Under the pieces are notes generated by a model. The model made no database searches, was not told where the DNA came from, and saw nothing but the letters and a program-made list of their open reading frames with translations. From an uncultured Ignisphaera sp. (GTDB lineage: Archaea > Thermoproteota > Thermoprotei_A > Sulfolobales > Ignisphaeraceae), in the NCBI GenBank assembly GCA_938074605.1, contig CALJEI010000002.1, positions 1 to 64,000 of the forward strand: a stretch of 64,000 bases of DNA, read 5' to 3'. The stretch's first letter is position 1. Each line of letters starts with the position of its first letter. Shown piece after piece: positions 46,854-64,000 of the stretch. The translations under genes and the position numbers were made by a program.

Positions 46854-48356
46854 ATGCATATGTTGGACGAATATGTTATACTTGGATTTGACATTGGTGC
46901 TAGTAGCTGTAGAGCTATGGTTGGTTTTATTAATGAAAAGGAGAAGAGGGTTGTTATTGAAGAGCTGTATAGATTTCCTAACTATATGGTTAGAGTAGGG
47001 GATAGTCTTTATTGGGATGTTTTAAGGATTTGGCATGAAATGAAACAAGCTATAAAGCTTGCGTATAGAAGGTATAGAGATAGTCTTGTCTCTATAGGTG
47101 TTGACACATGGGGTATAGATTTTGCTCTTCTTGATGAACGGGGGGAGCTGCTAGGTAATCCACATACATATAGAGATCCAAGAACTGAGGGTATGATGGA
47201 AGAAGTTCTTAGGATTATACCTAGGGAGAGACTATATGAGAGAACAGGAATACAGTTCATAAGAATAAATACGCTTTTCCAAATATACTCTATGGTTAAA
47301 GTTGGGGATCCTAAGCTTAAGATAGCAAAAACCTTTCTCATGATACCTGACCTCTTTAACTACTGGCTATCCGGAGTTGCCGTAGCCGAATATACAGAGG
47401 CAACCACATCCCAATTCTTAGATCCAGGTGCTAAAAAGTGGTGTTTTGATATTTTAGAAATTCTTGGTATTCCCATACACATATTTCCAGAGGTTGTAGA
47501 GCCTGGTACAAAGCTTGGAAAGATTGAACCTAGACTTGCTTCAGAGCTAGGCGTCTCTAGGGAGATAGAGATAGTTGCACCAGCAACTCACGATACAGCA
47601 TCAGCTATCGCAGCTGGGCCTATGATTGATGAAAATGCTGGTTACATAAGCTCTGGCACATGGTCTCTTGTAGGTGTTGAGCTTCCAGGACCGCTAATAA
47701 ATAGAAAGGCCATGGTATATAATTTCACTAATGAGGGTGGTGCATTCAATACTATTACATTTCTCAGAAATATACAGGGCATGTGGATTATAGAAGAAAT
47801 TAGAAGAGTATTAGCTGATAGAGGCCAAGACCTTTCATATGATGATATTCTTAGAATGGCTAGAGAAGCCAAAGCATTTAAAGCCTTCATAGACCCGGAC
47901 AGCGAAAGCTTTGTAGCACCAGAAGATATGATTAGCGCTATTACTAGATACCTCGAAGAGAGTGGGCAAGAAAAACCATCTAATTTAGGAGAACTCTTTA
48001 GAATTATATTCGAAAGTCTAGCACTAAAGTATAGGCTTGTATTTGAGCAGGCTGAGGACTTACTTGGGAGAAAACTAACACATATAAACATCTTTGGTGG
48101 TGGATCAAGAAACTGGCTTTTAAATCAATTAACAGCTAACTTTACAAATAAGATTGTCTATGCTGGTCCTGAGGAGGCAACTTCTATAGGCAATATACTT
48201 ATTCAAGCAGCTGGCTTAGGGATTATAGGTTCTTTAAAGGAGCTTAGAGAATATGTAAAGAATTCGTATCAAATAAAAGTATTTGAACCACAATACACGA
48301 GGGAGTATGAAGACGCCTATACAAGATTCTTAGACGTTATAAAGTATGGGTGGTAA
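46854..48356 (+). CDS. rhaB: Rhamnulokinase-type FGGY kinase
   Basis: The FGGY-family enzyme would phosphorylate L-rhamnulose, or a close ketose, at C1 using ATP. The phosphate-binding start is LGFDIGASSCRAMVG. SIGVDTWGIDFALLDERGEL and GNPHTYRDPRTEGMMEE are the hallmarks of RhaB rather than of xylulokinase. The C-terminal adenosine site includes INIFGGGSRNWLLNQLTA. Length (500) is normal. It is the first gene of an operon with a second FGGY kinase and a LarA-family protein. No rhamnose isomerase is recognised in the window. L-fuculose is an alternative substrate. Confidence 0.85.
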   Translation: MHMLDEYVILGFDIGASSCRAMVGFINEKEKRVVIEELYRFPNYMVRVGDSLYWDVLRIWHEMKQAIKLAYRRYRDSLVSIGVDTWGIDFALLDERGELLGNPHTYRDPRTEGMMEEVLRIIPRERLYERTGIQFIRINTLFQIYSMVKVGDPKLKIAKTFLMIPDLFNYWLSGVAVAEYTEATTSQFLDPGAKKWCFDILEILGIPIHIFPEVVEPGTKLGKIEPRLASELGVSREIEIVAPATHDTASAIAAGPMIDENAGYISSGTWSLVGVELPGPLINRKAMVYNFTNEGGAFNTITFLRNIQGMWIIEEIRRVLADRGQDLSYDDILRMAREAKAFKAFIDPDSESFVAPEDMISAITRYLEESGQEKPSNLGELFRIIFESLALKYRLVFEQAEDLLGRKLTHINIFGGGSRNWLLNQLTANFTNKIVYAGPEEATSIGNILIQAAGLGIIGSLKELREYVKNSYQIKVFEPQYTREYEDAYTRFLDVIKYGW

Positions 48357-48361
48357 AGCAC

Positions 48362-49828
48362 TTGAACAACTCCATACTGTTAATTGGTATAGATGTTGGT
48401 AGTAGTGGTATTAGGATAGAAATCTATAGTCCCGACGGTTTGTTAATAGCTATTGGTAGGGAGTCTATAGCTAGTCAGGATGCTGGCGAGTGGTTAAGAG
48501 CTATAGAGGTTGCAATGCCTTCTATAGTTAAGGAGTGTCGAAACTGTGAAAAATATGTTTCGGTGGACAGTACATCTGGCACATACATACCTACCGACAT
48601 GTATGGTAACCCCTTAACAAAACCCGTTATGTATTATGAAAAACTGCCAGAGACGTACAATAAAATCAAGTCTTTACCATCAATAGAAGCCCTCTCTAAA
48701 AAGGGTGTTATTGTAGATCCTGCTTCACCACTTGTAAAACTCTATCACATGAAGCTACATAGTCCTAATCTCTATAACAAAACCAGGTGGATAGTTCCAG
48801 CAGCAACGTGGATTCTCTATAAATTATGTTTAAAGGAAGGTGAAGTATGGAGCGACATAGAAACAGACTATACAAATGCTTTAAAATTTGGTCTAGATAT
48901 ACTATCAGAGTCGCCAAAATGGTTTATAGAAGTCTTTCAAGAGCTTGGCCTAGATGTAGCTAAAATGCCTAGACCTACGGCATGTGGAGAACATATATGT
49001 GAGGCTTCAGGTAAATATGCTGAGAGACTTGGTCTATTGCAAGCTAAAGTATTTCACGGTATGACAGATGGAAATGCTTCTGCACTAGCTGGAGGAGCGC
49101 TTAAGGTAGGCGACGTAAATATCTATAGCGGTACCACCACCGTACCTAAAATCGTCACGGACAAACTTATTCTACATCCAGCTATATACTACCATATACA
49201 TCCCATAAAGGGTTATTTAGCAGGAGCTGCTACAGGTTTTACAGGAGCGTTTCTAACATGGTTTACCGAAAAAATTTTTGGAATACCTATAGAAGAGGCA
49301 TTTAGGTATATGGAAAATATAGCGGCTGGAACAGAATACCTATTTCTTCCACCAGGCGACAGAAGCCCTTTCTATAATCCTCTAATGAATGCTGCATTAA
49401 TAAATCTTAAGATTGTTGATGAACCAAGAACATCACTTATTGGAAGAATTTTAAGAAGTATAGTACTAGGGATTACACTTATGGAAAATAGCTATGTTGA
49501 GTTATTTGAAAATCTATTCAATGTTGAGATTGACCGCATAAGATTAACAGGTGGTGGAACAAAATCAAGACTATGGAATTTAATAAGGGCATCAATATAT
49601 GGTAGAAGGGTTGAGATATATGGGGATTTAGTTGGTTTAGGAACGCTAATCCCTATGATGATTCGATCAAAACTCTATTCCAGCATAGAAGAGGTTGAGA
49701 AGAGATTTTTAAGACCTTTAGATATTGTAGAACCTGACGAATCTCTGGCTAACGCCTATAAAAACCTTAAGAACATATTTACACGTATCTGGGGAGATCT
49801 CCAGATAGTATACCAGCACTTAGGGTAG
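48362..49828 (+). CDS. FGGY-family carbohydrate kinase, substrate unknown
   Basis: This FGGY kinase of about 488 residues has the start motif LLIGIDVGSSGIRIEIYSPD, VSVDSTSGTYIPTD as the active-site loop, and RIRLTGGGTKSRLWNLIRA near the adenosine site. It is clearly divergent from rhamnulokinase and xylulokinase. The start is probably TTG 48362, seven bases after GGGTGGT; a GTG at 48350 would overlap rhaB. It is the second gene of the operon. Two different kinases together suggest two ketose substrates, or one acting on a different carbon. Confidence 0.8.
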   Translation: MNNSILLIGIDVGSSGIRIEIYSPDGLLIAIGRESIASQDAGEWLRAIEVAMPSIVKECRNCEKYVSVDSTSGTYIPTDMYGNPLTKPVMYYEKLPETYNKIKSLPSIEALSKKGVIVDPASPLVKLYHMKLHSPNLYNKTRWIVPAATWILYKLCLKEGEVWSDIETDYTNALKFGLDILSESPKWFIEVFQELGLDVAKMPRPTACGEHICEASGKYAERLGLLQAKVFHGMTDGNASALAGGALKVGDVNIYSGTTTVPKIVTDKLILHPAIYYHIHPIKGYLAGAATGFTGAFLTWFTEKIFGIPIEEAFRYMENIAAGTEYLFLPPGDRSPFYNPLMNAALINLKIVDEPRTSLIGRILRSIVLGITLMENSYVELFENLFNVEIDRIRLTGGGTKSRLWNLIRASIYGRRVEIYGDLVGLGTLIPMMIRSKLYSSIEEVEKRFLRPLDIVEPDESLANAYKNLKNIFTRIWGDLQIVYQHLG

Positions 49829-49856: not shown

Positions 49857-51131
49857 ATGACAACCATTACGTTTCCCTATGGTAAAAAATATTTAGAGAT
49901 TGATTTAGTAGGTGGTAAAATATTTACTGTATATTCAAGAGTTGTTAGAGGGGTGTCTGATACAGAGGCATTTAAACTAATTGATAATTCTCTAGATAAA
50001 CCCATAGCATCTAAAAGAATTGAAGAAACTATAGATGTTAGTTCAAGGATTGCAATACTTATAACTGATAAAACTAGGGCTACACCAAATAAGATTCTAT
50101 TAGAGAGAATATTATTTAGGCTTAGAGGAGTAGGCGTTCCAAGAGATAACATTAGAATCATTATTGCAACTGGTCTTCACAAATCCCATACATATAACGA
50201 TATTGTAGAACTTATTGGTAGTGATATAGCAAGTGAATATAATGTTGAAAGCCATGACGCAGATAATGATAAAAATCTTGTATATCTTGGTATGACATCT
50301 TATGGAACAAAAGTCTATGTAAATAGGGTGGTTGTAGACTCTCACGTAGTTATTGGTATAGGTCTTCTAGAACCTCACTTTTTTGCTGGATATAGTGGTG
50401 GTAGAAAGCTTATTTTACCAGGTGTAGCTGGCGCCAATACTATTTACCAAAATCATGGGTATAAAATGCTTAGTAGTCCTAGGGCTGACTATGGATTTTT
50501 GGAGGGGAATCCTGTTCATGAGGATATGGTTGAAGCTTCAAAACTTGTTAAAAGCTATAGATACATACTACATGTTATTCTAGATAAAAATAAGAGAATA
50601 GTGAATGCATTTGCTGGTGATGTATATGAGGCGCATAGAGCTGGCGCTGAAGTTTTAGATAGATATGTAAGAATTGAAGTACCCTATGAAGGAGATGTAG
50701 TTATAGTATCGAATGGCGGTTATCCATTGGATAGAGATTTATATCAAGCCGTAAAGGGTATGGTAACTGCCTCCAGAGTTACAAAAAGAGGTGGCGTGAT
50801 AGTGATGCTCTCTGAATGTATAGATGGTGTAGGGCATGAACATTTTAGAGAACTAGCATCAATCAGTAGTAATCCAATGGAGATTCTCAGACATATTGAG
50901 TTAAATGAGCCTTTAAGAGATCAGTGGCAGGTTCAAAAACTGATGCAAGTTCTTTTAAAGAATAAAGTTATAGTTGTAACAAAAAATATTAGTCATAGCG
51001 TTTTAGAAGAAATGAATTTTATTCCAGCATCAGATACTAGAGAGGCTATTGAATTAGCGTGTAGGGAAACATCATGTGATAAAATTATAGCAATACCTGA
51101 AGGCCCCTATGTAATTCCATCACTAAAATAG
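49857..51131 (+). CDS. larA: LarA-family nickel-pincer racemase
   Basis: LarA racemises lactate using a nickel-pincer nucleotide bound to lysine. This protein is 424 residues long, the length I recall for Lactobacillus LarA. The key residues fall at the same numbers: H108 in ATGLHKSHT, H174 in GLLEPHFFAG, K184 in SGGRKLILPG and H200 in IYQNHGYKM. The nickel-binding and hydride-relay positions are therefore complete, and the enzyme should be active. It lies 28 bases after the second kinase in the same operon. LarB, LarC and LarE, needed to make the cofactor, are not in the window. Other hydroxyacid racemases of the family are an alternative. Confidence 0.85.
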   Translation: MTTITFPYGKKYLEIDLVGGKIFTVYSRVVRGVSDTEAFKLIDNSLDKPIASKRIEETIDVSSRIAILITDKTRATPNKILLERILFRLRGVGVPRDNIRIIIATGLHKSHTYNDIVELIGSDIASEYNVESHDADNDKNLVYLGMTSYGTKVYVNRVVVDSHVVIGIGLLEPHFFAGYSGGRKLILPGVAGANTIYQNHGYKMLSSPRADYGFLEGNPVHEDMVEASKLVKSYRYILHVILDKNKRIVNAFAGDVYEAHRAGAEVLDRYVRIEVPYEGDVVIVSNGGYPLDRDLYQAVKGMVTASRVTKRGGVIVMLSECIDGVGHEHFRELASISSNPMEILRHIELNEPLRDQWQVQKLMQVLLKNKVIVVTKNISHSVLEEMNFIPASDTREAIELACRETSCDKIIAIPEGPYVIPSLK

Positions 51132-51316: not shown

Positions 51317-52855
51317 CTAGTACCTATATAGGTAGTTAATTTCTTTAAATATATCATTTAATGCTAAATAGCTTCTTCTAAATATGTCTAGCATTTTTCT
51401 ATAGATGTTTACTTCAGTGGGTGTTGGGCGGTATAGCTGTTGAGGTGTATTAATATATTTAGATTCCCTTAGGCTGCTATATATTTTAATTGCATATGCT
51501 GCTGTTATGCATGCTCCTAAAGCTGCTACCTCCTCCCTATACTTTAATACTGCAATCTCTTTGTTATATACATTAGAGAACACCTCTGGCCATAGACTGC
51601 TTTTAGCACCTCCACCAGCTAGAGCTATTGGCTCCTTAATAACTATACCATTCTCTATAAAACTTAGCATAATTAGTCCTAGATTAAATGCTACGCCCTC
51701 TAGAATAGCTCTAGCTATATCGCTACGGCTATGACTAAGTGTAAGACCTATTAAAACTCCACGAGCATATGGAGACCACCAGGGCGATCTCTCGCCCATG
51801 AGGTAGGGTAGGAAGAGAAGCCCGTTTGCTCCTGGCGGTGATCTTCTAGCCTCACGATCAATTAATTCATACTCTGAGATGCCTAAGAGATTTGCTGTTA
51901 GTTTTTCTAAAAGAAATATATTATCACGAAACCACCTAAGAGCTGCACCAGCTGTCTGCATTGTTCCTGTAGGTGTATAGAGTGTTGGCTCTATATAGAC
52001 CATGTTAAAGAATCTCATAGATTTATCTAGAATAGGTTCGCTGGTTAATGTTGAAAGCCATGAAGATGCTCCAAGGTAGATGTAAGTATCATATGGATCT
52101 GTAGCAGTTGCACCTACTGCTGTACATATTCCATCGCCACACCCTATAACTACAGGCAATCTATGGTGAAGCCCAAGACCGTGAGCAATATTACTGTCAA
52201 TCTCACCAACGACTGCCGTTGAAGGTTTTATTATAGGAAGTTTATCTACATCAACGCCAATTTCTTGTAACATTTGTAATGCCCAGCCTTTCTTTCTAAT
52301 ATCAAGCATTCCTGTAAGTGAAGCATCAGAATAATCTGTTTGAAATGTACCTGTAAGTCTAGCTACTATATAGTCCTTAGGCTGTAGAAATAGGTATACC
52401 CCATTATAAAGGGCAGGTCTATTTCTCTTCAACCACAGGATTTTTGCCACAGGATATGTTGGGCTTAATCTATTGCCTGTTATACTATAGAAGTCATATT
52501 CGCCAAATTTATTTCTAATATATTCTACTTCTTCAGTACTCCTCTGATCCATCCAAATGATTGCATTATCTAAGGCATTACCATTTCTATCAATTGGTAA
52601 GCATGCCATCATCTGCCCACTAAAGCTTATAGCCTCAATATCATCTGGTTTTACCTTTTTCAATAACCTCTTTGTAGATTCTATAAAAGCATTCCACCAG
52701 TCATCAGGTTTCTGTTCAGCCCAAAGCAGTTTAGGATGATATGTTGGGTATTCAACTATAGTGGAATCCACTATACTCTGATTCTCTACATTGAATAGAA
52801 CTGCCTTATCACCTGTAGTACCAATATCGTGCACAAGAATATATCTACCACACAT
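51317..52855 (-). CDS. FGGY carbohydrate kinase, xylulokinase-like
   Basis: A third FGGY kinase of about 512 residues. VHDIGTTGDKAVLFNVENQS is the start motif, SFSGQMMACLPIDRNGN and IIWMDQRSTEEVEYI the xylulokinase-type substrate loop, and ALAGGGAKSSLWPEVFSNVY the adenosine region. Its closest class is XylB (D-xylulose to xylulose-5-phosphate). The ATG at 52855 begins two bases after the stop of the transaldolase-like gene. A longer frame from TTG 52882 overlaps that gene by 25 bases. It is the third gene of a binding protein-transaldolase-kinase operon, which supports a pentose or related sugar. Confidence 0.83.
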   Translation of the reverse strand: MCGRYILVHDIGTTGDKAVLFNVENQSIVDSTIVEYPTYHPKLLWAEQKPDDWWNAFIESTKRLLKKVKPDDIEAISFSGQMMACLPIDRNGNALDNAIIWMDQRSTEEVEYIRNKFGEYDFYSITGNRLSPTYPVAKILWLKRNRPALYNGVYLFLQPKDYIVARLTGTFQTDYSDASLTGMLDIRKKGWALQMLQEIGVDVDKLPIIKPSTAVVGEIDSNIAHGLGLHHRLPVVIGCGDGICTAVGATATDPYDTYIYLGASSWLSTLTSEPILDKSMRFFNMVYIEPTLYTPTGTMQTAGAALRWFRDNIFLLEKLTANLLGISEYELIDREARRSPPGANGLLFLPYLMGERSPWWSPYARGVLIGLTLSHSRSDIARAILEGVAFNLGLIMLSFIENGIVIKEPIALAGGGAKSSLWPEVFSNVYNKEIAVLKYREEVAALGACITAAYAIKIYSSLRESKYINTPQQLYRPTPTEVNIYRKMLDIFRRSYLALNDIFKEINYLYRY

Positions 52856-52857
52856 AG

Positions 52858-53511
52858 TTATTCTACCGTAATATCTTTCCAAATTTCATTCATCTGATTA
52901 ATTACCCTATTTGATACTACAGAGTCTACAATACTTTTAAGGAGGGAATATTTAACTGTAACACAGTCGGCGCCTACCATAAATGCATTAACAAGCTGTA
53001 TAGGAGTTCTAATACTTGCTGCTAATACCAATGTTTTAACTTTATGAACTCTATATACCTCTACAATCGCCCTAACAACATCTATACCACTATAACCAGA
53101 TTCATCAACTCTCGCTACAAATGGTGCTACATAATCAACGCCGAGTAGTGCTGCCACAATAGCTTGTTCAACGTTTGTTATAGCTGTAGCCGTTATTTTT
53201 ACGCCCATCTCCTTCAATACCTTCATAGCCTTGACACCCTCACTATGCATTGGTATTTTAATTACAATTTTCTTAGGATCAATATCATAGATTATAGTAG
53301 CATTCTTTACATACTCATCACAGTTTCTTCCAGGAACTTGTACATGAAATTCATTACCTATATATGGAAGAAGCTCCGTAACAAGTTTCTTTAACGAAGT
53401 TTTCAAGCCATTACTAAATATAAACGGATTTGATGTAACACCATATACAAAACCACTTCCTATGGCTTCAATAATTTCGTTTTTTACGATACTATCTACA
53501 TAAAGTCTCAC
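52858..53511 (-). CDS. Transaldolase-like protein, FSA/TalC type
   Basis: This Schiff-base aldolase of 217 residues belongs to the fructose-6-phosphate aldolase/short transaldolase family. LYVDSIVKNEIIEAIGSGFV and GVTSNPFIFSNG are the N-terminal signatures. The catalytic lysine is K85 in IVIKIPMHSEG, the same number as in Escherichia coli FSA. AASIRTPIQLVNAFMVGADC follows the family. It moves dihydroxyacetone or cleaves ketose phosphates, so it fits downstream of a sugar kinase. The GTG start follows GGTG by six bases. It lies between the sugar-binding protein and the xylulokinase-like gene. Confidence 0.87.
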   Translation of the reverse strand: MRLYVDSIVKNEIIEAIGSGFVYGVTSNPFIFSNGLKTSLKKLVTELLPYIGNEFHVQVPGRNCDEYVKNATIIYDIDPKKIVIKIPMHSEGVKAMKVLKEMGVKITATAITNVEQAIVAALLGVDYVAPFVARVDESGYSGIDVVRAIVEVYRVHKVKTLVLAASIRTPIQLVNAFMVGADCVTVKYSLLKSIVDSVVSNRVINQMNEIWKDITVE

Positions 53512-53614: not shown

Positions 53615-54769
53615 TTAGCTAAGACATGCATAACCATAGTATCCTGGTGCATGGAATTGCGGGTTATCTGGTGTAAGCCGTTTTGCTATTGCCACAAGTT
53701 CTGTTGGCGGTATCTTAAAGTAGTCAACAGCAAGTGAATGTGTAGCATTACATGTAAAGACCTTATATGTTGGCGTATTTATTACAGCTTTTTCAGGTAA
53801 TTTCACTATGCCTGTAACCATGTAATATCCCGCCCATACTGCCCAGTATCCCATTGTATATGGATGTTGTTGAATAGATAGAGCTACTTGACCCTTTGCA
53901 ATCATATCAACCCATTCAGGTACCTGTGCATCGAATCCAAGGACATATATGTCTACACCAGGTATAATTTTATTGTCTTGAAGTGCTCTCACTATTGCCA
54001 TAGCCTGAAGTAGATTTGTAGCGAAATAGGCTGTTACTGTTTTGCCGTATTTTGGCACAATTGCGCTTGCCTTAGCATAGCATTCAGGTAGTAGATCAGG
54101 ATCCACCTGCACCTCTTCAAGAACCTTTGCATCACCACGATCTATATAGGGTCTTAGAGCCTCCATAAAACCTTCATATCTAAGATATGATGTGGGAATG
54201 CCTGGTAGTCCTCTAAATATAATTATACTCCATGGTTTTGGAACACCTTTACCCTCTAACCACTTTAGAAACGCTTCAGCCTCTATACGTGCTGCCCACT
54301 TATTATCAGTGCCCAAATAGAGGTCTCTTGCAGTCTGGTCTGGAAAGTCTCTATCAACTAGAATTACCTTGGCTCCTGCCTCTCTAATCTGTTTTGTAAC
54401 ATCCTGTACCGCATCTGAAACCGGTCCTACAACAGCTATGTCAGGTTTTAATGCAATTGCTTGCTGAAGCTGAGAAATCTGAACATCTAAAGTTGTTGCA
54501 TCAAATCTCCTATAATCGACGTCCACGCCAAGCATTCTCAAGTCATTTACGGCATCCTCAACACCTTGAGCAAGTATATCCCACCATGGATTAGCTGGTG
54601 CAGGGTCGAAGAAGAATACCGTTAGCTTTCTACCTGGAGCACCAACACCAGCAACAGGAGCTGGTGCTGTTACCGACCTTATGGCAAAGTAGCCTGTCAG
54701 ACCAGCTAGTATAATTATTATGACCACTAGTATAATCATCAACTGCTTCATTCTAGCTGGTGCTGACAT
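53615..54769 (-). CDS. Sugar ABC transporter binding protein, ribose-binding type
   Basis: This 384-residue protein starts with a hydrophobic helix (LMIILVVIIIILAGLTGYFA) that serves as signal or anchor. A periplasmic-binding-protein type 1 domain follows (KLTVFFFDPAPANPWWDILA, AIALKPDIAVVGPVSDAVQD, AKVILVDRDFPDQ). This is the RbsB/XylF family that takes pentoses and hexoses. It is the first gene of a leftward operon with a transaldolase-like protein and a kinase, and is divergent from the matching ATPase and permease. The sugar is unknown; the transaldolase partner suggests a pentose or ketose. Confidence 0.88.
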   Translation of the reverse strand: MSAPARMKQLMIILVVIIIILAGLTGYFAIRSVTAPAPVAGVGAPGRKLTVFFFDPAPANPWWDILAQGVEDAVNDLRMLGVDVDYRRFDATTLDVQISQLQQAIALKPDIAVVGPVSDAVQDVTKQIREAGAKVILVDRDFPDQTARDLYLGTDNKWAARIEAEAFLKWLEGKGVPKPWSIIIFRGLPGIPTSYLRYEGFMEALRPYIDRGDAKVLEEVQVDPDLLPECYAKASAIVPKYGKTVTAYFATNLLQAMAIVRALQDNKIIPGVDIYVLGFDAQVPEWVDMIAKGQVALSIQQHPYTMGYWAVWAGYYMVTGIVKLPEKAVINTPTYKVFTCNATHSLAVDYFKIPPTELVAIAKRLTPDNPQFHAPGYYGYACLS

Positions 54770-54865
54770 GTATACTTACCCCTATATATACTGTTTTTTA
54801 TACATTACTATATAAATTTTTATGCTCTGGTCTAAACATTCTAATAATTATGAGGGGAACTCCAG

Positions 54866-56407
54866 GTGATAAATAGAGAAGCAGTACTTGCTGAAAGAAT
54901 TGTAAAAAAATTTCCAGGCGTTATTGCTGTAAATGATGTTACATTTGAGTTAAGATATGGTGAAATCCATGGCTTACTAGGTCAGAATGGCGCAGGTAAA
55001 TCAACTCTTCTTAGGGTTATATATGGTGTCTACAAGCCCGACCAGGGCAGCATATACATTAATGGAAAGAGAGTATTTTTAAAAAATCCAAGGGATGCTC
55101 GTAGCCATGGTATAGCACTAGTACATCAAGAAATTACAGTAATACCGAGTTTAACTGTTTTGGAAAATATTGCCCTTTTGGGATTTTCATGGAACTCGCT
55201 AGCCTCAAAATTTGACTATGCTAGCTTTGGAGAATACATAGATAGAATTATGGCTAGATTTGGTATAGAGTTGAAGCTAAATGAAAAAGTGAGACATCTT
55301 AGTGCTGCCGAGAGGATGCTTCTTCAAGTCATAGCTGCATTAAGTGTTAATGCAAAAATATTGTTATTAGATGAACCTACAAGTCCGCTATCTCTACACG
55401 AAATTGAAAGACTATTTGATGTTTTGAATCAACTGAGAAAAGAAGGTTTTGCTATAGCTTTTGTAACCCATAGAGTAAATGAAGCTATTGATATATGTGA
55501 TAGAATAACTATTCTTAGAAATGGTGAGAAAATAGACACTGTTGAAAGTAAATCTATAGATATTCATAGCTTAATAAAATTGATGTTAGGTAGAGAGCCT
55601 GAAGAGCTATATAAGGTTAGAGATGAAAAAAGTATTGATCTACTGCTAAATAAATATACAGCTGAAGAACCATTAATTGAATTAAGAGCCATATATACAC
55701 AGCCTCAGATAGCCGCTGAAATTCCACTAAAAAATATCAATATTAAGGTATATCAAGGTGAGGTTGTTGCAGTATTTGGCTTTGTTGGTGCAGGTAAGAC
55801 AGAAATAGGAAAGACCTTAATGGGATTAACAAAGATTGTTAGAGGGGACATCTTATATAGAGGTAGAAGTATTAAGATAAAAAGTCCTGTAGATGCAATA
55901 AACCATGGCATCTTTTACCTTCCTGAGGATAGAAAGATTGAGGGCCTAATACCCCATTTTACAGTTGCTTCAAATATGGATATATCATCATTGGACATCA
56001 TAAAGAGATTTTCAATATTTATTGATGAAAAAAGAGAACTACAAATAACCTCTGATATGGTTAAAAAGCTAAGCATTGTAACACCGTCACCCTATGCTAA
56101 GATAATTCAATTAAGTGGTGGCAATCAACAAAAGGTTCTCGTTGCAAGAGCTATGCTTACAAATGCAAAACTCGTAATCTTTGATGAGCCAACCGTAGGT
56201 ATAGATGTTGCTGCTAAGGCGGAGATTAGAAGACTTATATATAGATATTCTAGAGAGAGGGGAACCTCATCCCTTGTACTGACAAGTGATGTTGATGAAG
56301 CTATAGGTTTGGCCGATAGAATATATGTTATGAGGGATGGCGAAATTATTCGTGAGTACTATAACAAAAAATTAGATAGGGACGAAATACTTAAAAATCT
56401 GGCATAG
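54866..56407 (+). CDS. Sugar ABC transporter ATPase, two ABC domains (RbsA type)
   Basis: The 513-residue protein has two ABC domains, as in RbsA/XylG/MglA. The first has GQNGAGKSTLLRVIYG, LSAAERMLLQVIAALS and LLDEPTSPLS. The second has FGFVGAGKTEIGKTLMG, LSGGNQQKVLVARAML and DEPTVGIDVAAK. Degenerate signature sequences in the first half are typical of the class. GTG 54866 follows GAGGGG by eight bases. It is divergent from the binding-protein gene by about 100 bases and lies 24 bases ahead of the interrupted permease. Together these make one importer. Confidence 0.93.
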   Translation: MINREAVLAERIVKKFPGVIAVNDVTFELRYGEIHGLLGQNGAGKSTLLRVIYGVYKPDQGSIYINGKRVFLKNPRDARSHGIALVHQEITVIPSLTVLENIALLGFSWNSLASKFDYASFGEYIDRIMARFGIELKLNEKVRHLSAAERMLLQVIAALSVNAKILLLDEPTSPLSLHEIERLFDVLNQLRKEGFAIAFVTHRVNEAIDICDRITILRNGEKIDTVESKSIDIHSLIKLMLGREPEELYKVRDEKSIDLLLNKYTAEEPLIELRAIYTQPQIAAEIPLKNINIKVYQGEVVAVFGFVGAGKTEIGKTLMGLTKIVRGDILYRGRSIKIKSPVDAINHGIFYLPEDRKIEGLIPHFTVASNMDISSLDIIKRFSIFIDEKRELQITSDMVKKLSIVTPSPYAKIIQLSGGNQQKVLVARAMLTNAKLVIFDEPTVGIDVAAKAEIRRLIYRYSRERGTSSLVLTSDVDEAIGLADRIYVMRDGEIIREYYNKKLDRDEILKNLA

Positions 56408-56431
56408 CATGAAAAGGCATGGTGGAATATC

Positions 56432-57412
56432 ATGGTATCAAGAGAACTTAATAACATGATCGTGCGATTTAAACACCTTTATTCATCCTATGAATTATCT
56501 AGAGCTCTCATACCATTAATTCTTCTACTTATAGCTTCTATATTTATGTCACCTCAGTATTTTCTAAACCCCATGAATATTAAGGTTGTATTAATGCAGA
56601 TAACACCATTAGCTCTTATAGCAACAGGCGAAATGCTGATTATTTTAATGGGAAGTATTGATTTGAGCCCTGGCTCAACATAAGCTGCAACTGCAATGAT
56701 TGCTGCCATAATAACGAGAACTACTGGTAATATCTTACTAGCAATATTAGTTGCAATTGCGCTTGGTACTACAATTGGTGCCATTAATGGTGTTCTAGTC
56801 GCCAAGCTAAAGATATACTCATTCGTTGCAACGCTTGCTGCATTAGTTATTTGGAGGTCATTTGTTATAGTAGTATCAGGAGGCAAGCTCATCTATGGTC
56901 TTACACAATATGCAGTATTTACTCAGGACTTTGGAATATATGTACCAGTAGGATTCCTCCTTGCAGTATTTATCATACTACTGATCTATGTATTATTGGT
57001 AAAGACAGTATTTGGTAGATATATCTATGGTTTAGGAAGCAATGAGGAGGCTGTAAGATTAGCAGGTGTAAGAGCTGATTTAGCAAAATTTTTCGCCTTT
57101 ACAATAGCAGGTACACTCTATGGTTTGGGAGGCGTAATGCTTATAGCTATGGGAGGATTTGCCGTGGATCCATGGAGTGCAAGAGGAAATGAACTTAATG
57201 CTATAGCATCATGTGTCTTGGGAGGAATTATGTTAACTGGTGGAAGCGGTCATCCACTTGGAAGCTTACTTGGAGCATCTATGCTAACAATACTTACAAA
57301 CATTCTAGTATTATTGGGTGTTACTGAGATTGCCGTTCAGCAAACTGTAGTAGGAATAGTGCTTATAGATGCTGCAACAGCATTAACAAGAGGTTTAAGA
57401 TACGTCAAGTAA
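56432..57412 (+). pseudogene. Sugar ABC transporter permease interrupted by in-frame TAA
   Basis: The reading frame is continuous from ATG 56432 to 57412 except for one TAA at 56681-56683. The two halves (83 and about 243 residues) stay in frame and join into a normal RbsC/XylH permease of about 326 residues. IILMGSIDLSPGST precedes the stop and AATAMIAAIITRTTG follows; this is the conserved GGIDLSVGS region before helix 3. KTVFGRYIYGLGSNEEAVRL and ASCVLGGIMLTGGSGHPLGS are intact. There is an internal ATG at 56696. A Tyr codon TAT or TAC changed to TAA by one base would explain it. It could be a recent mutation, a sequencing error, readthrough or a two-part protein. Confidence 0.85.
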
Positions 57413-59103: not shown

Positions 59104-60975
59104 TTAAATATTTATCCTAAGCTTTGCTATGTATTTCCCCAGCCCTAGTTCTTCTATAACCTCTTTTTTAGGAATACCATTTTCATCCCAGCCCATATAT
59201 TCATAGTATTCTTTTAGCATAGGTTCTAGTTCAACTACTTGATTTTTTGACCCTCCTTCTTTAAGAAATTCTTTTAGAAATCTTTTTGGAAGTATATCGT
59301 CTGTCCTTGTTATTCCATTTGCTATATTGAATAGTCTCTTTAGTGTAAATATTCTTTTTCCAATTTTTAGTAGATCTGGCACTGTTTTCCTAATCCCTGT
59401 AACATAGGTGTATAGCCCTGCTATATGTGCTGGCGGTATGTCTATAAATTTACATGTAACCATAGACTCCTGTATTTCGCTCCACATCTCCATCGTTGCA
59501 ACCATCCATCCCTTGCCTTTATACTCAAATCTATCGACCCTCTCATAGATTTTTAGATCATGTACCCTCTGACCCTGTTCCACCCTAAAGAAAAGTCCAT
59601 AGAGATGATCAGCACCCCTATTAGAAGTTGCATACTGAAGACCCATACCCTTAAATGCCCTTGAGTCATGCATAGGCATTTCAGTCCCCTTTACATGCAT
59701 ACAAAACTCCTCCGTGCCTCTACCAATAATTCTCGATGCCTGTCTACAGCCTTCAGCAAGTATATTACCAAAGCCTACCCTCTTTCCAATCATTTCAATA
59801 AGTTTTACTACAACCTCCTTATCACCCCACTTAAGCTCCATGCCACCTGTATCTCTAGCTGTAATCAACCCCCTCTCAAAACATTCAATAGCCCATGCAA
59901 TTGTAACACCTACAGAAATTGTATCAATACCATACCTATAACACAAATAATTAACCTTTGCAAGATAATTGGGGTCGTCTATCATGAGGAGAGTTCCAAG
60001 AGATGCTATTGTTTCATACTCTGGAGCCCTAATCCTCCTTCCATCTACTTCAACAACTTTCCAACACTTTACGGGGCATGCCCAACAGCCATATACATCA
60101 ACAACTATTCCCTTCTCCCTGAAGCTCTGTCCTGTAATATTTCTATAGCCATCGAATTCCCCTAGTGTGAAATTTTTAATAGGCATATCCCCATATTCAT
60201 AGAATTCCTCAACCTCACCTGCAGTACCAAATGATGCTAGAATTTGTGCTGTTGGCGATGACATTATAAGTGGAAGTAGTCTTGAAAGTATACTTGAAAC
60301 TCTTGAGACATCCTTAATCTTTATTTTTCCGCTACCTTTAACGGCTATAGCCTTTAGATTCTTAGAACCCATGACAGCGCCCATTCCAGTTCTACCACCT
60401 GTTCTAGGGCCATTTGGCTGAATATCTGAGGCTATGCATGCAATTCTAGATAAATTCTCGCCTGCAGGACCTATAGCAGCAACCCTTATACTTTCATCAC
60501 CAACATCCTTTTTAATTGCTTCATCAGTTTTAAATACATCTAGCCCCCAGAGCTTAGAGGCGTCTCTAAACTCTATAACCCCATCACGAATGAATAGATA
60601 TACTGGTGTAGTTGCTTTACCTCGAATAACTATACCATCAAATCCAGCCTTTTTAAGTTCTGGTCCCCAATAGCCAGATATATGAGACTCTCCCCAAGCC
60701 ATAGTTAGAGGAGACTTAGAGGCAACAACATATCTAGCTGCTCCATATACTGGTGAACCTGTGAGAGGTCCTGTCATAAATACAAGAATGTTGTCTGGAC
60801 TAAATGGATCTATTCTAGGGTCGGGTATTTCTTCAACAATAATTTTCGTTGCTAGCCCTATACCGCCAAGAAAGTTATCTATATCATCGTATTCTAGCCT
60901 TCTTTGTTCAACCTTCTCTTTAGATAAATCAACATATAAAATACTACCGACATAACCATAGTACTCCTGCGCCAT
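59104..60975 (-). CDS. aor: Tungsten aldehyde:ferredoxin oxidoreductase
   Basis: AOR oxidises aldehydes to carboxylic acids and passes electrons to ferredoxin, using a tungsten bis-pterin and one 4Fe-4S cluster. At about 620 residues the protein has normal length. Numbered from the upstream GTG at 60987, the cluster ligands are C301-x2-C304-x3-C308 in GCWACPVKCWK and C512 in VTCKFIDIPP. Pterin-binding stretches include YVVASKSPLTMAWGESHISG and GGRTGMGAVMGSKNLKAIAV. I use ATG 60975, six bases after GGTG. Its start lies 22 bases after the aldolase stop, so the two genes are co-transcribed. That suggests the aldehyde made by the aldolase is its substrate. Confidence 0.95.
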   Translation of the reverse strand: MAQEYYGYVGSILYVDLSKEKVEQRRLEYDDIDNFLGGIGLATKIIVEEIPDPRIDPFSPDNILVFMTGPLTGSPVYGAARYVVASKSPLTMAWGESHISGYWGPELKKAGFDGIVIRGKATTPVYLFIRDGVIEFRDASKLWGLDVFKTDEAIKKDVGDESIRVAAIGPAGENLSRIACIASDIQPNGPRTGGRTGMGAVMGSKNLKAIAVKGSGKIKIKDVSRVSSILSRLLPLIMSSPTAQILASFGTAGEVEEFYEYGDMPIKNFTLGEFDGYRNITGQSFREKGIVVDVYGCWACPVKCWKVVEVDGRRIRAPEYETIASLGTLLMIDDPNYLAKVNYLCYRYGIDTISVGVTIAWAIECFERGLITARDTGGMELKWGDKEVVVKLIEMIGKRVGFGNILAEGCRQASRIIGRGTEEFCMHVKGTEMPMHDSRAFKGMGLQYATSNRGADHLYGLFFRVEQGQRVHDLKIYERVDRFEYKGKGWMVATMEMWSEIQESMVTCKFIDIPPAHIAGLYTYVTGIRKTVPDLLKIGKRIFTLKRLFNIANGITRTDDILPKRFLKEFLKEGGSKNQVVELEPMLKEYYEYMGWDENGIPKKEVIEELGLGKYIAKLRINI

Positions 60976-60997
60976 TACTTGCACCACTCAATCCATA

Positions 60998-61663
60998 TTA
61001 GCCAAGCCTATAGAGCTTATAGTAGAGCTCAACTTCTCTTTCTGGTATAACTGGAGGCTCTTTACCAAGAGCCGTAGAAACAAATTGTGCTATGGCTACC
61101 TCCTCAAGTACTTCAGCAACTGCTTCAGCTTCATATAAATTAGCTCCCATAGCAATAATGCCATGGTTTTGAAGAATGAGAGCTCTCGTTCCAAGCGCAG
61201 CTTTTTCTGCTACAAGTTTTGCAAGTTGATCAGTTCCTGGAAATGCAAATGGAACAACTTCAACTCTTCTTAAAACCATAACAGCTTCTACCGTAATAGG
61301 CTTTAGACTAATACCTGCTAATGCAAGCCCTAGTGTAACAGGATTATGGGCATGTACTACAGCATTAACGTCTGGTCTAACTCTATATATTGCTGCATGA
61401 AAGGGCCATTCAATCGATGGTCTACCAAAACCATCAACTATATTACCATCTAGATCAAGCTTAATCAAGTCATCAGGTGTAAGTTCACCCTTAAATATTC
61501 CACTTGGTGTTATCCAAAAATCTTTTGAGTTAGGAATTCTAGCACTAACATTTCCACCTAGAGCAGAAACCAGCCCTCTATTAAATAGATTTCTCATAAC
61601 CTTGCAGATGTCATTCTTTATCTGCTCCTCTGGAATCTCAAGACCTTCACTCACATTAAACAC
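60998..61663 (-). CDS. fucA: Class II sugar-phosphate aldolase (fuculose/rhamnulose-1-phosphate type)
   Basis: A zinc aldolase of 221 residues. The zinc ligands fit the FucA pattern with the same spacing as in Escherichia coli FucA: E85 in SIEWPFHAA, H104 and H106 in VVHAHNPVTLG, and H167 in LILQNHGII. Such enzymes split L-fuculose-1-phosphate or L-rhamnulose-1-phosphate into dihydroxyacetone phosphate and L-lactaldehyde. Relatives act on ribulose-5-phosphate epimerisation or methylthioribulose-phosphate dehydration, so the name is provisional. It heads an operon with AOR. Confidence 0.85.
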   Translation of the reverse strand: MFNVSEGLEIPEEQIKNDICKVMRNLFNRGLVSALGGNVSARIPNSKDFWITPSGIFKGELTPDDLIKLDLDGNIVDGFGRPSIEWPFHAAIYRVRPDVNAVVHAHNPVTLGLALAGISLKPITVEAVMVLRRVEVVPFAFPGTDQLAKLVAEKAALGTRALILQNHGIIAMGANLYEAEAVAEVLEEVAIAQFVSTALGKEPPVIPEREVELYYKLYRLG

Positions 61664-61735
61664 CTACATACAGCATATAATGAACGGTGTTTAAGTTTTT
61701 AAGGCTTGCTATTAAGACTATGTATAGGGTTGGTT

Positions 61736-62017
61736 ATGGAGAGCATGATATCTATTACAATAAAGATACTACCACCATTTACACCCAACTCAAAGAGTAT
61801 TGAAAAAGTATTTTATTTCGAGAAGAGTCCATCCATTATAGATCTCTTAATTGAAGCTTCTAACAATGGTATTCTTAAACTAGATAGTGTTATAGATTCT
61901 GGCGAAATTAAAAATGGTGTTGTGCTACTAGTTAATGGTAAGACGGTATTTGATGTAAAACAGAAACTTAATAAAGGTGATAGAGTAGTGGTAATGCCTC
62001 TAGTACCAGGGGGTTAA
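61736..62017 (+). CDS. MoaD-like ubiquitin-fold sulfur carrier
   Basis: A small protein of about 93 residues with a beta-grasp pattern (ISITIKILPPF, IIDLLIEASNN, VVLLVNGKTVFDVKQKLNKG) and a C-terminal VVVMPLVPGG ending in Gly-Gly. The free Gly-Gly end is what MoaD and ThiS need for adenylation and thiocarboxylation. It probably supplies sulfur for the pterin of molybdenum/tungsten enzymes or for tRNA modification. I use ATG 61736; the TTG at 61706 is too far upstream. It is divergent from the aldolase-AOR operon by 72 bases, which suits tungstopterin supply to AOR. Confidence 0.78.
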   Translation: MESMISITIKILPPFTPNSKSIEKVFYFEKSPSIIDLLIEASNNGILKLDSVIDSGEIKNGVVLLVNGKTVFDVKQKLNKGDRVVVMPLVPGG

Positions 62018-62119
62018 TATCGTTACTTACTATAAATAGAAGCTAATATATACATTCAACTCTAAAATAATGTATTATATACACCTGCTATATGCAATGC
62101 ATCTATGGTGTGCTATAAA

Positions 62120-62902
62120 ATGCATCAAATAGAAATTGAAATTATTGATAGATTAGATAAAGTGTTACATAGGAGTAAGCCTCAAATGATTTTTATGGAT
62201 ATAGATGGTGTATTAACACTTTCTAGAGGTAGCTATATCCTAGACCTTGAGGTAGTTGATTTAATGAGAAGAATTGAGGGGCTAGGGATACCAATATGTC
62301 TTACCTCAGGTAATAGCTATCCAACAGTATTAACTCTTCAAAGATATTTAGGGTTATCACCTATATTTATAGCTGAAAATGGGTGTATAATTCAAATTGA
62401 AAAAAGGCTTATTAAGCTATGTAAAGAGTCTCTAAATGGTATAGTCAATAGTATTTCAGAGATATTTAAACTTCAACCATCTGACAGCAACTTATATAGA
62501 TTGTGTGATCGAGCTTTTAGAATTCCACAGGAATTAAAGGCTGATATACTGAAGATTAGAGAGTTGGAAAAGAGTATTACTACTCTTTTTCCAGAGATTC
62601 ACGCCCTATATACAGGCTATGTTTTACATATATATTCTAGGGAGTGTGGCAAGGGGAAAGCTATGGAGATACTTGCTAGGGAGATGGATATAGATCTCTT
62701 GAATTCTATAGCTATAGGTGATAGTGTTATAGATGTAGATATGCTAAAGTCTGCTGGTCTAGCTATAGTTGTTGGCGATGCTGATAATGAGGCTAAGGAG
62801 GCTGCAGATATAGTTCTACCATATAGCGCTTCAGAATCAACAAAAATCTTCTTAAAAACACTAATTAAATACATTAATAAAAATTGTATTAAAAAGAGTT
62901 GA
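62120..62902 (+). CDS. HAD phosphatase, archaeal phosphoglycolate phosphatase type
   Basis: A HAD type IIB hydrolase of about 260 residues. MIFMDIDGVLTLSRG is motif I with nucleophile Asp, ICLTSGNSYPTV motif II, the GKGKAMEIL lysine motif III and IAIGDSVIDVDMLKSAGLAI motif IV. The cap domain and length match the archaeal phosphoglycolate phosphatase/sucrose-phosphatase-like class. I use ATG 62120, about eight bases behind a GGTG; ATG 62105 adds five residues. Its stop lies two bases from the stop of the RuBisCO gene, which comes from the other strand. A clean-up role for 2-phosphoglycolate made by RuBisCO is a plausible inference. Confidence 0.8.
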   Translation: MHQIEIEIIDRLDKVLHRSKPQMIFMDIDGVLTLSRGSYILDLEVVDLMRRIEGLGIPICLTSGNSYPTVLTLQRYLGLSPIFIAENGCIIQIEKRLIKLCKESLNGIVNSISEIFKLQPSDSNLYRLCDRAFRIPQELKADILKIRELEKSITTLFPEIHALYTGYVLHIYSRECGKGKAMEILAREMDIDLLNSIAIGDSVIDVDMLKSAGLAIVVGDADNEAKEAADIVLPYSASESTKIFLKTLIKYINKNCIKKS

Positions 62903-62904
62903 AC

Positions 62905-64000
62905 TTAAATTGGCTTAACATATCCCCATTTTTCAAGAGCTTTTCTAAGCTCTATATGTCTTTCAGCATATTCATCTAGTGGAATATTCTTTGCTATAGC
63001 CTCTAGTGCTTGTCTAACTGCTGCTGCACCTGCTCTAGGGCCATCTGGATGTCCAACAACCCCTCCACCAACCTGTATAACAATATCTTTACCCATAACT
63101 CTTACAACCTCTGGTAAAGTACCTGGGTGAAGACCTCCTGAAGATACAGGTACAGCTGGCTTTATGTGATAGAATGGCTGTTCAATGTGGAAGATGTCAT
63201 TTTCATCTGGTTTAAACTTCTCCTCTCTAAGCACTTTACAATGCCTTATTACATCAATGGTTTTTGCCTCTAGTTTCCCAACCTCTGGTGTCCCTACATG
63301 AAGCTGGTCAACCCCTATTATTCTAAACAGTTTTGCTAGTGTAAACATGGAGATGCCATGGTAAGGATTTCTTGTTATGGCAGCATGCATAGCCCTATGT
63401 GCATGTATTGCTAGTTTATATTCTTCAGCAAGGTCTCTTATATATGTAAGAGCAGACCATCCACATATAACAACATCAACCATGATATATGGATTTCCAT
63501 AGTCTGCCACAAGTTTTAGTCTTTTCTCCATTTCTCTAACATCAGCAGTTATATTTGCAAACCAGACCTTTCTCTCACCCGTCTCTTTTTCAACTCTATC
63601 AATAACCCTCATTATAGCCTTTGCCCTTGCCTCAAATCTACAGTAACTAGGGCTAGCAAGATTTTCATCATCCTTTATATAGTCTAGCCCCCCACTAAGA
63701 ATATCATATGCAAGCTTCTCAACCTCATCAGGGCTATAGCCAACTTTTGGCTTAGGAACTGTTCCAACGATAGGTCTATCATATACTTTAAATATATCTT
63801 TAACACCTTGAAGTCCTCTATAGGGCCCCTTAAAATACTTTATAAAGCTATAAGGAAGATATATATCCTCAACTCTAAGCCACTTAGCTCTCCTCATACC
63901 AAATATATTTCCAGCAACACTAGCTAGAAAACCAGGTATATTATTTTCCTCAAATAGCTCTACTGGATAGCCAATCTTCACTAGATAAGACCCATCACCA
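62905..64000 (-). CDS. rbcL: RuBisCO large chain, form III (5' end outside window)
   Basis: The enzyme carboxylates ribulose-1,5-bisphosphate; archaeal form III acts in the AMP/nucleoside salvage route. The frame is open to the window edge (GDGSYLVKIGYPVELFEE), so the apparent GTG start near 63981 is internal and about 80 N-terminal residues are missing. Catalytic features are present: TVPKPKVGY, the carbamylated Lys with metal ligands in GGLDYIKDDEN, HAHRAMHAA, GKLEA and SSGGLHPGTLP. All point to an active enzyme, not a RuBisCO-like protein. AMP phosphorylase and ribose-1,5-bisphosphate isomerase are not in the window. Confidence 0.95.
   Translation of the reverse strand, partial: GDGSYLVKIGYPVELFEENNIPGFLASVAGNIFGMRRAKWLRVEDIYLPYSFIKYFKGPYRGLQGVKDIFKVYDRPIVGTVPKPKVGYSPDEVEKLAYDILSGGLDYIKDDENLASPSYCRFEARAKAIMRVIDRVEKETGERKVWFANITADVREMEKRLKLVADYGNPYIMVDVVICGWSALTYIRDLAEEYKLAIHAHRAMHAAITRNPYHGISMFTLAKLFRIIGVDQLHVGTPEVGKLEAKTIDVIRHCKVLREEKFKPDENDIFHIEQPFYHIKPAVPVSSGGLHPGTLPEVVRVMGKDIVIQVGGGVVGHPDGPRAGAAAVRQALEAIAKNIPLDEYAERHIELRKALEKWGYVKPI

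Follow-up and report, generated by a model that had tools for sequence, protein, structure and literature searches.

The aldolase and aldehyde oxidoreductase genes

The window analysed here is a stretch of 64,000 nucleotides at the start of one contig of an uncultured Ignisphaera sp. (genome G000, contig G000:C2; other genomes and loci are cited by G and L numbers). Near its far end, on the minus strand, lie a class II (zinc) sugar-phosphate aldolase of 221 aa (60998..61663), recognized by Pfam PF00596, zinc-ligand alignment and orthologues, and a tungsten-type aldehyde:ferredoxin oxidoreductase (AOR) of 623 aa (59104..60975), recognized by PF02730/PF01314, motifs and solved relatives. The AOR open reading frame (59104-60987) opens at GTG 60987, with ATG 60975 inside it; because orthologue alignments start at residues 5-8 of this frame and a GGTG lies 6 bases before the ATG, we place the start at ATG 60975, which leaves a gap of 22 bases after the aldolase stop (60976..60997). 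The first-pass annotation had given the same strand, the same spacing and the same GGTG-set start. The aldolase itself starts at GTG 61663 or, likelier, at GTG 61654, which has a GGTG 6 bases upstream.

The earlier identification of the AOR holds: the protein carries the domains AFOR_N (255 bits) and AFOR_C (438 bits), a CxxCxxxC motif at residue 301, a later cluster cysteine within TCKF, and GRTGMGAVMGSKN as its pterin motif, that is, every feature that defines the family (both domains, the Fe4S4 cysteines and the pterin motif). Its best solved relatives are AORs, including that of P. furiosus (1aor, 393 bits), and the GAPOR equivalog NF040818 is missed by far (50.6 bits against a cut-off of 1300). 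AORs oxidise aldehydes with ferredoxin; tungsten, not molybdenum, and ferredoxin are the predicted partners of this enzyme.

The aldolase scores 176 bits against PF00596 (cut-off 22), and its Glu85, His104, His106 and His167 align with Glu73, His92, His94 and His155 of E. coli FucA, so that the zinc ligands are intact, as the first-pass annotation had stated, and the superfamily features (PF00596, three zinc-binding histidines, catalytic glutamate) are all present. The equivalog cut-offs for FucA are missed (TIGR01086, 89 of 400 bits; PRK06833, 118 of 264; FucA_Meth, 115 of 250), and at the acid/base position of FucA, Tyr113, the protein has no tyrosine and carries Glu126. All AOR-linked orthologues have this glutamate in the Tyr113 stretch, as read by eye (the aligner moves FucA by one column here). 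Glu126 followed by PGTD corresponds in sequence to Glu171 with PGTD in E. coli RhaD, a residue which we take to serve at the acid/base position. Overall likeness to RhaD is lacking (221 aa against about 274 aa; 30 bits for E. coli RhaD, 86 for FucA), and in size and general similarity the aldolase is nearer FucA; it is about 32% identical to its E. coli counterpart. These residues and scores, with an acid/base position like that of RhaD, set the aldolase apart from a textbook FucA. Since the FucA cut-offs are missed and this position resembles RhaD, fuculose 1-phosphate and rhamnulose 1-phosphate are both candidate substrates, and Glu126 alone does not settle the substrate, because most archaeal paralogues outside AOR linkage carry the same glutamate.

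The exchange at Tyr113 also bears on whether the protein is an aldolase at all. It could instead be an MtnB-like dehydratase or an AraD-like epimerase, in which case the link to AOR would mean something else; in MtnB a glutamate likewise lies near the FucA Tyr113 position, and the best NCBIfam subfamily name is that of an epimerase (PRK06557, 125 of 251 bits). We give this very little credence: the catalytic residue is Glu85 where AraD has aspartate, Glu126 with PGTD matches RhaD, which is an aldolase, the MtnB model reaches 84 of 137 bits, and aldolases lead the fold matches of a low-confidence AlphaFold model. That model, built from 10 sequences, has a mean pLDDT of 68, and because it is weak, with the active-site stretches 84-90 and 119-130 below 50, its fold ranking is good for the statement "aldolase fold" only.

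Conservation of the pair

The first-pass annotation had named a lack of conservation in relatives as grounds for rejecting its reading; the pair proved to be conserved across several orders. Among named genomes, those closest to the window's own are Ignisphaera MAGs. Among 197 genomes of the host's order, orthologous aldolase and AOR genes lie side by side in 10 genomes from three families (11 loci); the 11 best AOR matches in the order (65-100% identity) all adjoin the aldolase; identity falls to 45% or less with the AOR ranked next. Scanning 84,980 species genomes showed the pair also in Caldivirga (including the isolate MU80), in another Thermoproteales MAG and in many Bathyarchaeota. Altogether 27 of 65 distinct class II aldolases, all orthologues (62-100% identity) from Ignisphaera, other Desulfurococcales, Caldivirga, the other Thermoproteales MAG and Bathyarchaeota and thus from several orders, have this AOR as the next gene downstream, on their own strand and with 4-85 bases between the aligned segments. 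The linked aldolases cluster in the tree of the 65 sequences, where 5 label changes compare with about 21 after shuffling, and every aldolase in this set that is at least 61% identical and has enough contig is followed by an AOR. A broken copy from Bathyarchaeota (L131, 66%), left out of the tree for its shortness, lacks an AOR within the next 1.6 kb. Because the linkage is conserved and the linked aldolases cluster, the aldolase-AOR pair is an old conserved functional unit, its linkage far beyond chance.

Genes around the pair

The window also holds, on the plus strand, a RhaB/FucK-type 6-deoxy-ketohexose kinase (46854..48356), assigned from TIGR02627 and solved relatives, and a second FGGY kinase (48350..49828) that overlaps it by 7 bases. 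The first kinase misses both equivalog cut-offs (TIGR02627, 448.5 bits against 528; TIGR02628, 156 against 471). Among solved relatives S. pneumoniae FucK scores best (352 bits), with E. coli RhaB at 281 bits; set against the E. coli sequences, the kinase is nearer RhaB (291 bits) than FucK (112 bits, from a partial FucK sequence). In G110 (two copies), G031, G010 and three Caldivirga a kinase of this type is the next gene after the pair, and in G103 one precedes the pair; the second kinase clusters with those of L049 and L053, which in G103 and G010 lie close to the pair.

In G010 and G031 the pair has a FucI-type isomerase and a sugar ABC transporter as neighbours. The FucI gene of the window's own genome lies on another contig, and the kinase and a LarA gene of the window lie 8-12 kb from the pair. 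The FucI-type isomerase, about 25% identical to its E. coli counterpart, has the N1, N2 and C domains of Fucose_iso, all above the Pfam cut-offs, and its TE and FADVR metal-ligand stretches align with solved isomerases; the NCBIfam equivalog cut-off for FucI is not reached. Across the 197 genomes, FucI is present in nine of the ten that carry the pair and in 2 of the 187 others (Fisher, 5e-13, kinship ignored); the exception is G044, which has the pair and lacks FucI. The isomerase that neighbours the pair in Caldivirga was considered as an L-rhamnose isomerase and rejected (RhaI, 40 of 531 bits for one copy, no match for the other); it is a xylose-isomerase-like TIM-barrel enzyme that perhaps replaces FucI.

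Transport is represented in the window by an ABC transporter (53615-57412) whose orthologues lie beside FucI in G024, G034, G103 and G110. It comprises a sugar-binding protein (53615..54769, minus strand; PF13407), with orthologues adjoining FucI in G024 and G110; an ATPase of the AraG/RbsA type, by domain and family matches (54866..56407, plus strand), with genes 56-80% identical to it adjoining FucI in G024, G034 and G103; and a permease (56432..57412, plus strand), broken in the assembly by an in-frame TAA at 56681-56683. The permease orthologue in G024 is intact, and the TAA is either a recent lesion or an assembly error.

The deoxysugar suggested by these family matches would be fucose and/or rhamnose, both of which yield L-lactaldehyde; both are candidates because the kinase is nearer E. 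coli RhaB, yet its best solved relative is the S. pneumoniae fuculose kinase. The first-pass reading, in which lactaldehyde is released as FucA/RhaD aldolases do, is supported by the neighbours, with the corrections that the FucA equivalogs are missed and that the acid/base position resembles RhaD. In Bathyarchaeota, the flanks seen around the pair hold no isomerase, kinase, transporter or lactate genes.

Several other genes lie close by. A divergent MoaD/ThiS-like ubiquitin-fold protein ending in GG (61706..62017, plus strand; ThiS, 20.8 bits against a cut-off of 22.5; moaD_arch, 26.8 bits), whose gene adjoins the pair also in the other Ignisphaera loci L044-L048, may be a sulfur carrier for the tungsten-pterin cofactor. 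A type III RuBisCO gene and a HAD gene that resembles phosphoglycolate phosphatase (62105-63999) adjoin the pair in G000 and G061; in G024, G034 and G044 the same two genes travel with the RhaB-type and second FGGY kinases (L090, L092 and L096), which suggests a link between RuBisCO and ketose kinases. Having stayed with the kinase genes in those three genomes, RuBisCO and the phosphatase were set aside as pathway members. Just past the window, a sulfoquinovose-isomerase-like protein (175 of 700 bits; L054:6335-7738, G000:C2:64335-65738) adjoins RuBisCO, and its homologues lie beside second RhaB copies in G034 and G044. A second RhaB-type kinase occurs with a 32%-identical aldolase and no AOR in G044 and G024 (L097:8528-10750 and L099:8281-10487), and this kinase and unlinked aldolase probably serve another sugar. 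At 51317-53511 of the window two genes overlap, one for an FGGY kinase (xylulokinase/gluconokinase-like), the other transaldolase/fructose-6-phosphate-aldolase-like. On its own contig, the FucI gene of this genome is divergent from an HdrA/HdrB/HdrC/FlpD-like cluster (L086:3941-7717, G000:C7; L098), likewise in G061, so that electron bifurcation beside a FucI sugar gene is possible.

On the product side, a probable LarA-type nickel-pincer lactate racemase (49857..51131, plus strand) follows the kinases. It has Lar_N (197 bits) and LarA_C (126 bits), its closest curated family is NF033504 (424 bits, below the cut-off of 460; malate racemase, 379 of 500), and its best solved match is the lactate racemase 2yjg. 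Relatives of this gene adjoin the pair in L104 and L110, in the latter after the AOR, and LarA is present in 6 of the 10 genomes with the pair and in 3 of the 187 others of the order (Fisher, 2e-7, kinship ignored). In the isolate B17_G15 (L104) a single strand reads etfB-etfA-lctD-larA-aldolase-AOR, and the best solved relative of this LctD is the ferredoxin/NAD lactate dehydrogenase subunit LctD 7qh2 (291 bits; glycolate oxidase, 214). EtfB, EtfA and an LctD-type FAD subunit share an operon in L104, L184 and L186, which by their gene content would encode an LctBCD-like lactate dehydrogenase with predicted electron confurcation. Other Ignisphaera carry etfB-etfA-lctD-larA elsewhere in the genome, LutA-LutB follows the AOR in G103, and the window's own genome and G061 have LutAB; within the genus, LctD or LutB occurs in all six genomes with the pair and in one of five that lack it. 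Since racemase and lactate dehydrogenase genes join the pair, lactate is most likely the AOR product. No enzyme of the Aldedh superfamily (PF00171) was found in the window's own genome, in G061 or in G110 (70% complete), in keeping with the earlier proposal that AOR acts in place of an NAD-dependent dehydrogenase.

Three other fates or sources of the aldehyde were weighed against lactate formation. Lactaldehyde might mainly be reduced to 1,2-propanediol, with AOR clearing stray aldehyde: a GldA-like Fe-ADH lies about 4 kb from the own-genome FucI (glycerol dehydrogenase, 396 bits; propanediol/glycerol dehydrogenase, 326 of 700), and on rhamnose, lactaldehyde is reduced by Caldicellulosiruptor (PMC4187192). 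Against this, linkage between the Fe-ADH and the pair is lacking, AOR adjoins the aldolase in every order seen and genes for lactate oxidation join the two, and we regard this reading as very unlikely.

The main rival, and a serious one because FucI-type isomerases also act on D-arabinose and a RuBisCO III lies nearby, is that the aldolase would split ribulose 1-phosphate into DHAP and glycolaldehyde, which AOR would oxidise to glycolate. Ribulose 1-phosphate could come from D-arabinose, through the FucI-type isomerase and kinase, or from RuBP, as in the non-carboxylating pentose bisphosphate pathway of halophiles. The own-genome FucI indeed has a D-arabinose isomerase as its best solved match, RuBisCO III and the HAD phosphatase adjoin the pair in two genomes, LctD is a member of the GlcD family, and the halophile ribulose-1-phosphate aldolase is a FucA homologue beside a HAD phosphatase (PMC9700705). 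Yet a LarA adjoining the pair would be pointless, because glycolate has no stereocentre; LutAB is lactate-type, LctD is closer to that of A. woodii than to glycolate oxidase, the halophile model RU1PAldHalo (NF053831) is missed at 106 of 300 bits, and in G024, G034 and G044 it is the kinase pair that RuBisCO and the phosphatase accompany, and not the aldolase-AOR pair. On balance we judge a glycolaldehyde route improbable, though it deserves to be kept in view.

Acetaldehyde, a classical AOR substrate, would be released if the pair served the disposal of 5-deoxyribose or methylthioribose, by cleavage of 5-deoxyribulose 1-phosphate into DHAP and acetaldehyde for oxidation by AOR. A 5-deoxyribulose-phosphate aldolase from B. 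thuringiensis is among the closest solved relatives, and such a bacterial pathway exists (PMC6079011). This is scarcely credible here, as the partners are FucI, the RhaB-type kinase, the sugar ABC transporter, LarA and lactate dehydrogenases, and in the annotated loci no MTA phosphorylase or aIF2B-like isomerase lies beside the pair.

The proposed pathway and known systems

We consider it likely, from gene content and context, that the pair lies at the heart of a pathway by which anaerobic thermophilic archaea use 6-deoxy-L-sugars (L-fucose and/or L-rhamnose) through phosphorylated intermediates, with AOR oxidising lactaldehyde. Gene identities rest on family, active-site residues, conservation, linkage and co-occurrence, from which we infer substrates, electron carrier and direction of flux. 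The sugar would be imported by the ABC transporter and isomerised by the FucI-type enzyme (in Caldivirga perhaps by the xylose-isomerase-like TIM-barrel enzyme); the RhaB/FucK-type kinase would add a phosphate at C1, and the class II aldolase would then cleave the 6-deoxy-L-ketose 1-phosphate (fuculose and/or rhamnulose) into DHAP and L-lactaldehyde. The tungsten AOR would oxidise L-lactaldehyde to L-lactate and reduce ferredoxin, standing in for the NAD-dependent lactaldehyde dehydrogenase; this step, which the first-pass annotation had put forward, fits both the isomerase, kinase and transporter that would act before it and the LarA and LctBCD-like or LutAB enzymes that would act after it. 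Lactate would be converted to pyruvate by LutAB in the window's own genome, G061 and G103, and by LarA with the LctBCD-like flavin-based lactate dehydrogenase in other Ignisphaera and in B17_G15.

More speculatively, carriers of etfB-etfA-lctD-larA-aldolase-AOR may possess a closed ferredoxin loop, an idea we hold tentatively, at somewhat less than even chances. Ferredoxin reduced by AOR would be consumed by LctBCD, the confurcating lactate dehydrogenase spending ferredoxin and lactate to reduce 2 NAD+, with the outcome that lactaldehyde would reach pyruvate with every electron delivered as NADH. If this is true, archaea would have a deoxysugar pathway that depends on tungsten and employs flavin-based confurcation.

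For most of the many AOR paralogues in archaeal genomes no natural substrate has been assigned, and one AOR group tied to a single aldolase across several orders offers a directly testable physiological substrate. If the proposal is right, electrons leave lactaldehyde at the level of ferredoxin and not NADH, an NAD-dependent lactaldehyde dehydrogenase is unneeded, and in hot anaerobic habitats the breakdown of fucose and rhamnose has a different redox and energy balance. The first-pass annotation was aware of no described tungsten route of this kind, and the open-access literature (subscription papers lay outside the search) yielded no description of AOR acting on lactaldehyde or of a ferredoxin-linked sugar pathway like this one. 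The proposed pathway would place known kinds of enzyme in a new arrangement.

Among described systems, Caldicellulosiruptor likewise is a thermophilic anaerobe that catabolises rhamnose without the usual lactaldehyde enzymes; there the lactaldehyde step is listed as missing and a three-subunit acetoin-dehydrogenase-like enzyme, not AOR, was proposed for it (PMC8579813). The non-carboxylating pentose bisphosphate pathway of halophiles is also archaeal and uses a FucA-type aldolase that gives DHAP and a small hydroxyaldehyde, but there an NADH enzyme reduces the glycolaldehyde, and the operon comprises kinase, isomerase, HAD phosphatase and aldolase, with no AOR (PMC9700705). The bacterial L-fucose and L-rhamnose pathways (FucI-FucK-FucA and RhaA-RhaB-RhaD) share the isomerase, kinase and class II aldolase steps and the products lactaldehyde and DHAP, although the E. 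coli isomerase and aldolase are distant from the archaeal ones; bacteria then employ the NAD-dependent AldA or the reductase FucO, where we propose a tungsten, ferredoxin-linked AOR. The AOR of P. furiosus, a broad oxidiser of amino-acid-derived aldehydes, belongs to the same family and has the same cluster and pterin motifs, whereas the AORs described here make up a conserved group of their own that goes with a single aldolase. In the LctBCD system of Acetobacterium woodii, whose operon includes the lactate racemase, EtfB, EtfA, LctD and LarA stand in the same order as in the archaeal stretch, but in the isolate B17_G15 the stretch continues with the aldolase and AOR genes, whose products would be the source of both lactate and reduced ferredoxin.
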